DNA from: Nitrospirota bacterium
GTDB taxonomy: Bacteria; Nitrospirota; Nitrospiria; Nitrospirales; Nitrospiraceae
Direction of reading: 5' to 3'
Length of the DNA: 47,458 nt
NCBI GenBank assembly: GCA_022545705.1
Contig: JACZQN010000005.1
Coordinates: 1 to 47,458 of the forward strand
Shown: positions 43,481-47,458 of the stretch, piece after piece
Position numbering within the stretch: position 1 is the first letter of the stretch
How the letters are laid out: each line of letters opens with the position of its first letter
Position numbers and translations under genes: made by a program
Notes under the pieces: generated by a model
The model's database searches: none
The model's input: only the letters and a program-made list of their open reading frames with translations
Told to the model about the DNA's origin: nothing

Positions 43481-44128
43481 ATGTTGATCGGTATGCGCGC
43501 TCAGCGGCATACGCGGATGCTTATGATCGCCGTCACGCTCGGCTTGTGGGCAGCTCCCGCGTTCTCTGTTGCTGCAGACCTGGGGCGCGAGAAGCTCGAG
43601 AAGGTCCCGCCCGAGGAGTATCCGATTTACGATCGCGTCGTTGAGGCGAAATTTCTGACATCCCAGACCAGACTCGTCATCATCGACCGGTTGACGGTTG
43701 GGGAGTTGAGGCCGGATCTGCCGCCCCCCACATGGGAATTTTTCACAGAGTTTGATTTCTTCGCTGGGAAGTTGCAGCCCGAGACTGTGACCGATTTTCT
43801 CTTCAAGACACGCCGCCGCTCACGTCTGGAAGCTCGGTTCAACTTCGGGGTGCGGTATCAATTCGCCTCGGATGGGGTGCTCGAAGAGCCGATGGTATTC
43901 CTCGCGCCTGTTCCTGCCGGTCTCACCCGGTTTGACCCCACCAGAATCGGCGTGCTGGGATTTTCCCGCGTTGGCTTCAACGCGCGAGAAGACCAGGCGA
44001 TAGTCTATGTCGGCGATTTCAGGCCCGATGGCAGCGGGGCGGGATTCCTGGTCTTGCTGCATCGCGTCGGGCACGAGTGGAAGATTACGGACACGGAGGT
44101 CCTGTGGGTCGCACGGGAAGACGAATAA
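43481..44128 (+). CDS. Exported protein of unknown function
   Basis: A 215-residue protein with a signal peptide: MRAQRHTRMLMIAVTLGLW from the ATG at 43493, then APAFSVAA and a likely cleavage before DLG. The mature part is beta-rich in appearance, with RLVIIDRLTVGEL, FFTEFDFFAGKLQPETV, FGVRYQFASDG, VLGFSRVGFNAREDQAIVYVGD and GFLVLLHRVGHEWKITDTEVLWV. The last segment (a hydrophobic strand, then Gly-His-Glu-Trp-Lys-Ile) looks like the final strands of an NTF2-like or SnoaL-like fold, but I cannot assign one. No ribosome site is visible before either ATG. Confidence 0.6.
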   Translation: MLIGMRAQRHTRMLMIAVTLGLWAAPAFSVAADLGREKLEKVPPEEYPIYDRVVEAKFLTSQTRLVIIDRLTVGELRPDLPPPTWEFFTEFDFFAGKLQPETVTDFLFKTRRRSRLEARFNFGVRYQFASDGVLEEPMVFLAPVPAGLTRFDPTRIGVLGFSRVGFNAREDQAIVYVGDFRPDGSGAGFLVLLHRVGHEWKITDTEVLWVAREDE

Positions 44129-44226
44129 GTCGCCCCAGTCGCATCACCCTTGACGCATCATGAGGTACGTGTGGCGCACGTCTCTCACTTGCCAACGCTC
44201 CCTCGCGGCTGTAGCATGGAGGAGAG

Positions 44227-44856
44227 ATGATTCGAAAAACGTTCCCGGTCCCACCCTTGGGGTGTAATTGTTCGATCCTCGGCGATCCCGTGACCAAGCA
44301 GGCGATCGTGGTGGACCCCGGAGGAGCCCACGAAGAGATCTTAGAGGAGATCCGTGTCCTGGGCCTCACGGTGGTTACCATTCTACACACGCATGCCCAC
44401 TTCGATCATTTTCTCGCCTCTGGCGAGATCAAAAAGGCGACCGGCGCCAATCTGTGCCTCCATCCGGAAGACCGCGAGCTCTGGGAGATGTTGGAGATGC
44501 AGTGCCGACTGTTCAATGTGCCGTACGTACCCGTGCCACCGCCGGATTACTGGTTGCAGGATGACGAGAAAATCATGCTCGGCGGTCTGGAAGGCTCAGC
44601 TTTTCACACGCCAGGGCATACGCCCGGATCGATGTGTTTTTACTTTCCTGACCAGAACCTCGTGCTCTCAGGCGACACGCTGTTTCGTGGTGGGATCGGG
44701 CGGACGGATCTCTGGGGTGGTGACTACCGTGCGATCGAGCGATCGATTCGAGAACGACTCTACGCGCTGGATGAAAAGACATGCGTGATTACCGGGCACG
44801 GGCCGGAGACTCAGATCGGACTTGAGAGAGAATCGAACCCGTTCATCAGTGGGTAA
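44227..44856 (+). CDS. MBL-fold metal hydrolase, glyoxalase II-like
   Basis: A 209-residue metallo-beta-lactamase-fold enzyme. The metal site has HTHAHFDH, the second-shell His of HTPGHTPGSMCFYF, the bridging Asp in LVLSGDTLFRGGIGRTDL, and the last His in ITGHGPETQIG. GCNCSILGDP near the N-terminus is typical of the YcbL/GloB-like group, which cleaves thioesters such as S-lactoylglutathione. The ATG has a good GGAGGAG ribosome site. It is a single gene between two exported proteins, and its substrate is not evident. Confidence 0.9.
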   Translation: MIRKTFPVPPLGCNCSILGDPVTKQAIVVDPGGAHEEILEEIRVLGLTVVTILHTHAHFDHFLASGEIKKATGANLCLHPEDRELWEMLEMQCRLFNVPYVPVPPPDYWLQDDEKIMLGGLEGSAFHTPGHTPGSMCFYFPDQNLVLSGDTLFRGGIGRTDLWGGDYRAIERSIRERLYALDEKTCVITGHGPETQIGLERESNPFISG

Positions 44857-44945
44857 CAGGACCGTAGGGCCACAGGAGGTGGGCCGAGCCGGCGCTTGAA
44901 GTCCAGGCCACGACTCGAGTCCACATTATATCCTTGGAGGGAATC

Positions 44946-45446
44946 ATGAAGCGTCTCGGGATGCTGCTTGTGCTGTCCGCGCTGGTGGGAATGAGCTTGA
45001 GTGTGTCAGGCGCAACTTCGGATTCCGGGGTCGCTCAAGTTGAGATCAAGGATGTGGAAGTGCGGGTGTCGGACCATGGTCCGGTCGTGCTGTTGAAGGC
45101 CGAAAATAAGGTGATCGCGATCTTTGTGGATCCGACGGTCGCGGGGTCAATCCAGGGTGTGCTGACCGGCCGGAAGACGAAGCGGCCGCTTTCCCATGAT
45201 CTGATGCACTCGATCCTGGAAGAATTCGGCGGAAAGGTGACCCAAGCTGTCATCACGTTGAAGGACAGCATTTACTATGGGGCGTTGACGGTCGTGTTGA
45301 AAGACAAATCCAAGGTGTTCGACAGTCGTTCATCTGATGCGATCGCGTTAGCCATCCACTCCAAAGCGCCAATCATTGTGGGCAGGGACCTCTTGGATTC
45401 AGCAGGTAAGAGGTTTCCGGATTCGTCGGGATCTGTAACCCTATAG
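44946..45446 (+). CDS. Bifunctional-nuclease-family (DUF151) protein with signal peptide
   Basis: A 166-residue protein. It starts at ATG 44946 with GGAGG 7 bases upstream; an upstream ATG at 44934 lacks this. The signal peptide is MKRLGMLLVLSALVGMSLSVSGA. The mature part carries the DUF151 pattern VLLKAENKVIAIFVDPTVAG, SHDLMHSILEEFGGKV, YYGALTVVLKDKSKVFDSRSSDAIALAI, with the conserved DSRXSDAIALA. Other DUF151 proteins are cytoplasmic and were reported as nucleases in plants; here export is predicted, which is unusual. A terminator-like hairpin follows. Confidence 0.85.
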   Translation: MKRLGMLLVLSALVGMSLSVSGATSDSGVAQVEIKDVEVRVSDHGPVVLLKAENKVIAIFVDPTVAGSIQGVLTGRKTKRPLSHDLMHSILEEFGGKVTQAVITLKDSIYYGALTVVLKDKSKVFDSRSSDAIALAIHSKAPIIVGRDLLDSAGKRFPDSSGSVTL

Positions 45447-45482
45447 CGTGCACTGTCCAGGATGAACTCACGCTCTCCTGAC

Positions 45483-45510
45483 GGAAGGGCGCTGCGGAGC
45501 CCTTCTTCCT
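45483..45510 (+). terminator. Rho-independent terminator-like hairpin after the DUF151 gene
   Basis: gaagggc (45484-45490) pairs with gcccttc (45499-45505) around an 8-base loop, followed by TTCCT. The T-tract is short and mixed with C, so termination would be modest. It fits as an end for the DUF151 transcript, leaving the HExxH gene with its own promoter. Confidence 0.6.
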
Positions 45511-45618
45511 AGCGACTTCTCAGTTGTGCCAGTCCAACGCTGACCAGTCCCGTTGCCGCACTGACTCTGATCCTCTTCGAACGGCCTTCACACGCCCGCA
45601 CGACCCAGCCTACGCCGC

Positions 45619-47187
45619 ATGGTAGCCAAGATCGAACTCTTTGATGCTGAGTTGCTCCGGAGGTTGATAGACGAGTTTCGTGCATCCATGAGGCGACTTC
45701 TGTTCGACCTGTGTGAGGAGCTGGACGGCGAATCCAGGCGTCAGGCGGCAGTGTTGCAATTGCCGGTGGGATTATTTCGTGAGGTGGCGGACTCGCTCGC
45801 GCGGGAGCATTACTCCAACTGGAAGGTGGTCGGATGGATCGAGGAGTTGAACGAGCTGGTGTATTTCCTCGATCTTCAAGCCCAGCTCCACCGTGAGCGG
45901 AGTCACGAACAGTTCGCGATGGAGCTGCTGGCGGAGTGTGAGGAGCAGTTGTATGAGCACAGTTATCTCGACGAACTGTTCCCGCGCGGTGAGCCTGAGC
46001 CGGTTGGCCTTGCACGGCGACTGTCCGGTCTGTGTGCGCGCCTGGCTCGACAGGCCACCCAAGAGTCTCTGTTTCTTGTGCCGGGTTTGCCCTGTGTCTG
46101 GCTGGCGCGAACGCAGCAAACGAAGTGGACGACGCCATGTGATCTTCGTCCGAACTTTGAGCGGGCGGAGTTGGGCGGATGTGTGTATGCCGGGGTAGAA
46201 GGGGCGTATCTTGCGCCTCCTGCCTCGCTGCGTACCAGACTCTCCGCGCGGACTGATCAAGCCACTCTGCTCATCCGGCCCGACGGAATCCAATTGAGGA
46301 TCGGCGGGCAGATCGTCCCGCTGCTCACGCCTGATGGACTCCACTGCTCGCCCTGGCAGTACGTGCCGCCCTGCTATGTGCAGCCGGGCGGCCTGACACT
46401 TGGACCGGCGCTTGTGTATGGGAAGGATGCTTCGCCTTGCCGGGTTGCCCCGCCGCCTCCAGGACTTGCCGAACGCCTTCAGCGGGCGCTGGCGGTGATT
46501 GAGTCGGCGTGGCCGGCTGGCGGGGGGAATGTCGCGTGTTTGACGTCGAGGATTGTGCCGTTGAAGGCCCGCGGAGTGGTGAGCTTCAGCTATCGCCACC
46601 GGCCCGGCCTCTCATTTATCAATTGCTTCGATCGTGATGCGTTGGATTTGATCGATGACCTGCTGCACGAGAATAGCCATCATCACCTGAATCTGCTGTT
46701 GCGGAAGTACGTCCTGATTCGGAAAACCCATTACCGTGAGGTCTTGTATTCTCCCTGGCGTCGCACCCTTCGGCCGTTGCGCGGGATTCTCCACGCATCC
46801 TTCACGTTCACGATGGGCGCCATTCTGTTTGAGCGCCTCTCAGCCTGGGCAGGGTCAAGGACACGCCCAGGCGGCGCCCGGAGTGATGGAAGAGGAAAGG
46901 CGGGGCTGACCGCGAAGGAAGTGCTCCGCGCCCGCTTCCGGTGCCTGGAGGAGGTTGAGTCGGTCCAGTACTCGATGCGGGATCTGACCCATGCCGCGAA
47001 CAGCCTCGGCTGGTTGAGCGGCGCGGGCGGGTTGTTAGTCTCTGAGCTTCAGGGCCAGATTGCAGGCGTTCGGCGGCGGATCGCCCCTTATCGGCGTGCC
47101 ATTCTCCGTTCCCGGTATGGTGCCGCGTTACGACGGCAGCAGCGTGAACTGGCAGCCGCTCGCACCACCTATCGGCCCCTGACGTGA
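45619..47187 (+). CDS. HExxH-motif protein, similar to the putative peptide-modification (peptide beta-hydroxylase) family
   Basis: A 522-residue protein with no signal peptide. Residues 1-~345 are mixed and unfamiliar. The metal motif is LLHENSHHHLNLLLR (His350, Glu351, His354). It is followed by REVLYSPWRRTLRPLRGILHASFTF, which closely matches the order YxxPWRxDPRPLxGxLHGxYAF in the family described as 'HEXXH motif domain, putative peptide modification' (TIGR04267). Members of that family act in RiPP pathways, and some are 2-oxoglutarate-dependent peptide beta-hydroxylases. No precursor peptide, radical SAM or transporter gene is adjacent, so it is an orphan here. A C-terminal basic helix (RRRIAPYRRAILRSRYGAALRRQQRELAAA) is distinctive. 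A 217-bp palindromic element follows 18 bases after the stop. Confidence 0.65.
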   Translation: MVAKIELFDAELLRRLIDEFRASMRRLLFDLCEELDGESRRQAAVLQLPVGLFREVADSLAREHYSNWKVVGWIEELNELVYFLDLQAQLHRERSHEQFAMELLAECEEQLYEHSYLDELFPRGEPEPVGLARRLSGLCARLARQATQESLFLVPGLPCVWLARTQQTKWTTPCDLRPNFERAELGGCVYAGVEGAYLAPPASLRTRLSARTDQATLLIRPDGIQLRIGGQIVPLLTPDGLHCSPWQYVPPCYVQPGGLTLGPALVYGKDASPCRVAPPPPGLAERLQRALAVIESAWPAGGGNVACLTSRIVPLKARGVVSFSYRHRPGLSFINCFDRDALDLIDDLLHENSHHHLNLLLRKYVLIRKTHYREVLYSPWRRTLRPLRGILHASFTFTMGAILFERLSAWAGSRTRPGGARSDGRGKAGLTAKEVLRARFRCLEEVESVQYSMRDLTHAANSLGWLSGAGGLLVSELQGQIAGVRRRIAPYRRAILRSRYGAALRRQQRELAAARTTYRPLT

Positions 47188-47205
47188 CGATTCTAGCGGC
47201 TTGTC

Positions 47206-47422
47206 CTAGCCCACATTATTCATGACGGTTCGTCGCGAAATCGCGGAGTCGCGCAGCGAGACGGGCGCGTGGAGCCGCGAAGGACCGAGACGTACTTGAA
47301 CAGTACGTCGAGGGACTGAGTGGCGAGCCCGCCCGCCTGCATGCAGCAGTAGCCGCATGCAGGCTGGTCGCAGCCGCGAATCCGCGATTGCAGCAGAAGT
47401 GTTCATGAATAATGTGGGCTAG
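47206..47422. mobile_element. 217-bp nested palindromic element with perfect 20-bp inverted ends
   Basis: Inverted ends at 47206-47225 and 47403-47422 (ctagcccacattattcatga and its exact complement) match at 20 of 20 positions. Inside, 47239-47252 and 47376-47389 pair at 13 of 14. Two hairpins sit in the middle: 47289-47296 with 47302-47309 (8 bp perfect), and 47335-47344 with 47355-47364 (10 bp perfect, 10-base loop). The whole can fold into a multi-branched structure. It holds only short ORFs with no family features. It looks like a small non-autonomous element (MITE-like) or a structured repeat; no transposase gene is in the window. Confidence 0.7.
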
Positions 47423-47458
47423 AGCTGCAACGATTACGTTGCTACCCCTGCTTCCAAA

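Follow-up and report, generated by a model that had tools for sequence, protein, structure and literature searches.

Every aKG-HExxH enzyme in the literature that we found belongs to a peptide natural-product cluster. Residues hydroxylated by the characterised members are His, Asp, Phe, Gln and Pro; oxidative cleavage of the backbone is a further activity of PflC/PosC (PMC12636437, PMC13060819). Two members with structures in the PDB serve as reference points below: the HExxH domain of ChlH / ChlB (PDB 8s5f), credited to Morishita et al. 2024, which PMC12614342 and PMC12636437 cite, and SjiH (PDB 22nu/22ob), deposited as a radical S-adenosylmethionine (SAM) core domain-containing protein. Here we describe a gene of the same class at 45619-47187 (+ strand) of contig JACZQN010000005.1 from a Nitrospirota bacterium (assembly GCA_022545705.1; the window is the whole analysed stretch, positions 1 to 47,458), and we find it to be no stray gene: almost all genomes of one bacterial family carry it, as a rule in a single copy.

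Set against the described systems, the Nitrospira protein shares with ChlH the HExxH, SPWR and LRP..G.LHA motifs and the overall fold, but it is a stand-alone protein of 522 aa (342 residues are resolved in ChlH) with no nearby precursor. SjiH is its best fold match (E 5e-11) and shares the APWR/LRP motif, although the sequence similarity is weak (E 0.002). PflC/PosC, PesO and BpmH/BipH, which we compared by description, belong to the same class and, like the protein considered here, have no described radical SAM fusion; unlike it, all of them sit in peptide gene clusters that include a precursor (PMC12636437, PMC13060819, PMC12257519, PMC12707348).

An aKG-HExxH protein with a predicted ChlH-type fold

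The gene is a complete open reading frame (ORF) with an ATG start. Its product matches TIGR04267 (the NCBIfam domain 'aKG-HExxH-type peptide beta-hydroxylase'; IPR026337) at 68.4 bits (E 7.3e-19) over residues 288-408 (46480-46842, +), and since the curated cut-off is 40 bits, the match is far above chance. An earlier note on this DNA had placed the region from His350 to about residue 405 in the HExxH family linked to peptide modification and had proposed a hidden Markov model search with this profile; the search bears out the placement. A Pfam search of the 522-aa protein returned zero family matches, peptidase families included.

Three motifs stand out in the domain. The HExxH motif itself (His350-Glu351-Asn352-Ser353-His354; 46666-46680, +) aligns to that of ChlH, its two His being predicted Fe(II) ligands, and is followed by an SPWR...LRP..GxLH motif at residues 378-392 (46750-46794, +), whose Arg385 is common to all members compared. 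Upstream of the HExxH, alignment comparison reveals a subfamily signature, GVVSFSYRHRPGLSFINCFDRD..LDLIDD, at residues 319-347 (46573-46659, +). This segment (SFSYRHRPGLSFINCFDRD..LDLIDD) is near-invariant in the subfamily and largely missing from the compared peptide-cluster (RiPP-type, for ribosomally synthesised and post-translationally modified peptide) members, a contrast that makes it a probable substrate-side element or fixed substrate site. In all 62 of 62 aligned sequences H350, E351, H354, S378-R381, R385, P386, G389 and H392 are invariant, and conservation across the compared members makes Arg385 the best candidate for 2-oxoglutarate binding.

The same motifs emerge when a profile built from 62 relatives (A1) is searched against PDB sequences: ChlH is matched at E 8e-13 with the HExxH, SPWR and LRP..G.LHA motifs aligned, and SjiH at the E of 0.002 given above with its APWR/LRP motif aligned. 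The position of His392 is occupied by Gln in SjiH and by Asp in the second HExxH copy of one family genome (G121, described below), and because of these replacements Glu444/Glu445 are left as candidates for a putative third metal ligand. The gene is under purifying selection with invariant catalytic motifs, the median ratio of nonsynonymous to synonymous substitution (dN/dS) being 0.13 over 160 pairs with usable dS, which share sequences and hence are non-independent. Median dN is lowest in the catalytic part (0.056, residues 283-412) and highest in residues 161-282 (0.175).

An AlphaFold2 model built with 62 sequences has a mean predicted local distance difference test score (pLDDT) of 90 and a predicted template modelling score (pTM) of 0.88. 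When the model was searched against the PDB with Foldseek, taking E < 0.001 as significant, the only matches were SjiH (22ob) and four ChlH chains (8s5f, E 3e-8 to 7e-8). The note had named a plain zinc metallopeptidase fold as the outcome that would count against its assignment; no metallopeptidase is among the significant matches, the peptidase-like LTA4H appearing only at E 3.8, so that the predicted fold points to aKG-HExxH enzymes alone. Template modelling (TM) scores against 22ob and 8s5f are 0.29-0.43 normalised by the query, which is longer than both SjiH and ChlH, and 0.46-0.65 by target; the query-normalised values mean that the match is at fold level and not close. A search of a viral structure library with the model gave no match below E 0.001.

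The note had also called the roughly 345 N-terminal residues unfamiliar. By sequence this stands, but structurally it does not: in Foldseek the 522-residue model aligns with ChlH and SjiH over 438-508 columns, so that the N-terminal half, as modelled, appears largely to belong to the fold. Its helical part (residues 10-164; 45646-46110, +) has pLDDT mostly above 90 and lies inside the region aligned to 22ob/8s5f. A strand-rich middle part follows in the model (residues 170-277; 46126-46449, +), the fastest-evolving by dN, and a helical region is predicted at the C-terminus (residues 432-517; 46912-47169, +). Taken together, the TIGR04267 score, the presence of the HExxH and SPWR / RP..G motifs, and the predicted ChlH-type fold show that the product of 45619-47187 is a member of the aKG-HExxH class.

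Distribution in Nitrospirota

A scan of 84,980 GTDB genomes with exact 8-residue patterns from one sequence, which for that reason detects close relatives only, returned 63 relative loci at 46-58% identity, most of them full-length and with the complete genome of N. moscoviensis among them. All but one (62/63) are titled Nitrospira, Nitrospiraceae, Nitrospirae or Nitrospirota, the exception (L050) bearing the title uncultured Nitrosospira. Within the family itself, TIGR04267 is present in 115 of 120 genomes with a completeness of 90% or more (111/114 at high quality), above the cut-off in 114 of them, and nearly always in single copy, with a second copy in only two (G119, G121). Among the five genomes without a match (G031, G068, G123, G137, G145), G031 has a gene fragment at a contig edge, and G068 and G123 have the usual NFACT neighbour missing or truncated as well as the HExxH gene, which suggests that the absence there reflects assembly gaps.

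Among 246 genomes drawn from Nitrospirota, no other family of the phylum has the gene, apart from a copy of peptide-cluster type in G052. A tblastn search of plasmids with the protein gave zero matches, and viral contigs held no relative. Near-universal single-copy presence in one family speaks for a housekeeping function and against a part in making peptide natural products.

Ordinary RiPP-type HExxH members do occur in the same order; they are rare, sit in peptide clusters and differ from the core gene. We identified these clusters by reading translations. The second HExxH copy of G119 (L147:4411-8527) adjoins two radical SAM genes, that of G121 (L146:7886-12609) lies within a gene row resembling a peptide cluster, and in G052 (L148:5497-8327) a 314-aa HExxH protein is accompanied by a radical SAM gene, a 61-codon precursor-like ORF and a 205-aa protein.

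Proposed function and its alternatives

Our best reading, based on sequence comparison and the predicted model, is that the protein would be an Fe(II)/2-oxoglutarate oxygenase hydroxylating an endogenous protein or peptide whose gene lies elsewhere, which would make it a housekeeping member of a natural-product class; we hold this with modest confidence. His350 and His354 would hold the iron; Arg385, perhaps with Arg381/Arg388, would hold 2-oxoglutarate; and the conserved loop 319-347 would help to hold a substrate that is conserved throughout the Nitrospira family and has its gene at another place in the genome. The product would be a hydroxylated residue, probably at the beta-carbon, of that endogenous protein or peptide. 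Since characterised members hydroxylate their substrates and PflC/PosC in addition carry out oxidative cleavage, both outcomes are possible for the Nitrospira enzyme.

More tentatively, this single-copy, family-wide oxygenase may hydroxylate a conserved cellular protein of nitrite-oxidisers and their relatives, possibly coupling the state of that protein to O2, iron or 2-oxoglutarate. The cupin superfamily of 2-oxoglutarate enzymes includes protein hydroxylases, such as ribosomal oxygenases, which would offer an analogy for the proposed role of hydroxylating a cellular protein, although their fold and metal motif are different. If the proposal is true, a core-gene branch that includes the cultivated Nitrospira moscoviensis extends aKG-HExxH chemistry from specialised metabolism to general cell biology, and implies that proteins of organisms central to nitrification carry a modification so far unreported.

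Several points weigh against this reading. We sought a substrate among the neighbours and conserved small ORFs of 64 loci and identified none, and the best-conserved neighbours (NFACT, a PKD-domain protein and a permease) are encoded on the opposite strand, and no functional link emerges from them. The restriction to one family holds within the phylum and for close relatives only, the profile search having been confined to Nitrospirota. Finally, all characterised members of the class in the literature found act on RiPP precursors (PMC12636437, PMC13060819, PMC12257519, PMC12707348).

That last point is also the chief argument for the alternative that survives best, a RiPP maturation enzyme whose precursor and partner enzymes are encoded elsewhere in the genome; precursors can be unlinked, and precursor types outside those known are possible. 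We nevertheless consider it unlikely. The near-universal single-copy presence is unlike that of RiPP clusters, and the RiPP-type members of the same order are the rare, clustered genes described above. Searches of the window's own genome found neither a multinuclear non-haem iron-dependent oxidase (MNIO) nor an NHLP leader peptide, and its single SPASM radical SAM match is of an order-wide kind, with counterparts also in sister families devoid of the HExxH gene; its distribution does not track that of the HExxH gene. The earlier note had seen no precursor, radical SAM enzyme or exporter beside the gene, and this agrees both with the upstream genes of its own contig, where no radical SAM, MNIO, exporter or precursor candidate is found, and with the 64 loci, across which none of these is conserved near the gene, nor any small ORF specific to it. 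The suggestion in the note that the enzyme may have a distant precursor or one of the cell's proteins as its substrate was likewise sound.

A metallopeptidase, or a bifunctional enzyme that mainly cleaves a peptide bond hydrolytically or oxidatively, seems less likely again. HExxH is the zincin motif, and the related PflC, besides cleaving its precursor oxidatively, can hydrolyse truncated substrates (PMC12636437), but the oxygenase-type SPWR/LRP motifs are invariant here, and neither the Pfam search nor the significant fold matches brought up a peptidase. The least probable of the alternatives is oxidation of a metabolite in free form, for instance an amino acid, instead of a peptide: the housekeeping distribution would suit it and the HExxH-like iron enzyme PolE acts on free isoleucine, but PolE, a pterin-using member of another family (DUF6421), has no 2-oxoglutarate site (PMC12614342), every characterised member of the aKG-HExxH class in the literature examined acts on peptides, and the conserved neighbours give no pointer to a metabolite.

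Neighbouring genes and the 3' end

In its own genome only the upstream neighbourhood of the gene is visible, as the contig ends 271 bases 3' of it. The nearest informative neighbours are a metallo-beta-lactamase-fold protein (44227-44856) and a bifunctional-nuclease-domain protein (44934-45446); the others upstream are proteins without an informative Pfam match, and an Rfam search of 44000-47458 gave no match. The window's subclade has this same-strand pair instead of the more frequent arrangement. Of the 64 loci, 43 have an NFACT (RqcH-like) gene upstream in divergent orientation. Downstream on the opposite strand, 46 encode an amino acid permease and 45 a protein with a PKD domain; genes for a response-regulator protein (30 loci) and for a 2OG-FeII_Oxy_4 protein (27) are also frequent.

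None of the candidates drawn from this neighbourhood was retained. The NFACT gene was rejected as a functional partner because NFACT is near-universal and in the window's own genome lies on another contig (C55) with a zinc-ribbon neighbour of its own. The small upstream zinc-ribbon protein was rejected as a substrate, its family being multi-copy and found also in sister families without the HExxH gene. Proteins of this zinc-ribbon family are about 75-90 aa long (CxxC...CxxC) and multi-copy family-wide, with up to 17 matches per genome (e.g. G027:C8:695173-695394), and one copy often sits between NFACT and the HExxH gene. As for conserved intergenic small ORFs, the printed sequences of the remaining clusters read as antisense or overlapping frames, or as downstream toxin-antitoxin genes or short basic peptides. 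We also observed a protein of about 500 aa, widespread in the family (G001, G005-G010 and others), whose partial match to MNIO (PF05114) scores about 40-70 bits; it is absent from the window's own genome, occurs in sister families too, and is longer than ordinary MNIOs.

The last ~60 bp of the gene (47125-47187, +) correspond to a stretch that tblastn finds repeated downstream, in direct orientation, in 12 relatives (L005, L006, L007, L008, L011, L014, L017, L024, L029, L048, L059 and L062). The repeat is mostly about 60 bp and up to ~185 bp long, with two in series in L005, L024 and L059; a copy is not visible in the window's own genome because the contig ends. Most repeats adjoin toxin-antitoxin genes (Fic/Doc, PIN or ribbon-helix-helix, RHH) or an AAA/DUF4143 gene, and in many of these relatives such genes lie between the gene end and the repeat. 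Among 43 loci with a complete gene and a measurable distance to the PKD gene, the 13 empty-looking sites, with that gene within 300 bp, have no repeats (0/13), whereas 10 of the 30 with larger gaps do (Fisher two-sided p 0.02, an optimistic value in view of the relatedness among the loci and of a 300-bp split set after viewing the gaps). Apparent repeats in L028 and L055 were dropped since the gene's frame is interrupted in both, and what looks like a copy may be the true end of the gene; with these ambiguous loci kept, p is 0.0096. The repeat-core pattern, searched in 40 genomes, matched in six, always in or within about 1 kb of the HExxH gene. We noticed no integrase, no dedicated integrase search having been made. 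These observations suggest that the 3' end of this conserved gene is a cassette-like insertion or integration hot spot.

Between the gene and the contig end, positions 47206-47422 of the window hold an element of ~217 bp that has perfect terminal inverted repeats of 20 bp (CTAGCCCACATTATTCATGA) and no recognisable gene within it. It resembles a non-autonomous mobile element. The same genome contains tens of copies, full or partial, several of them at contig ends, and the copy in the window may be responsible for the assembly break there.
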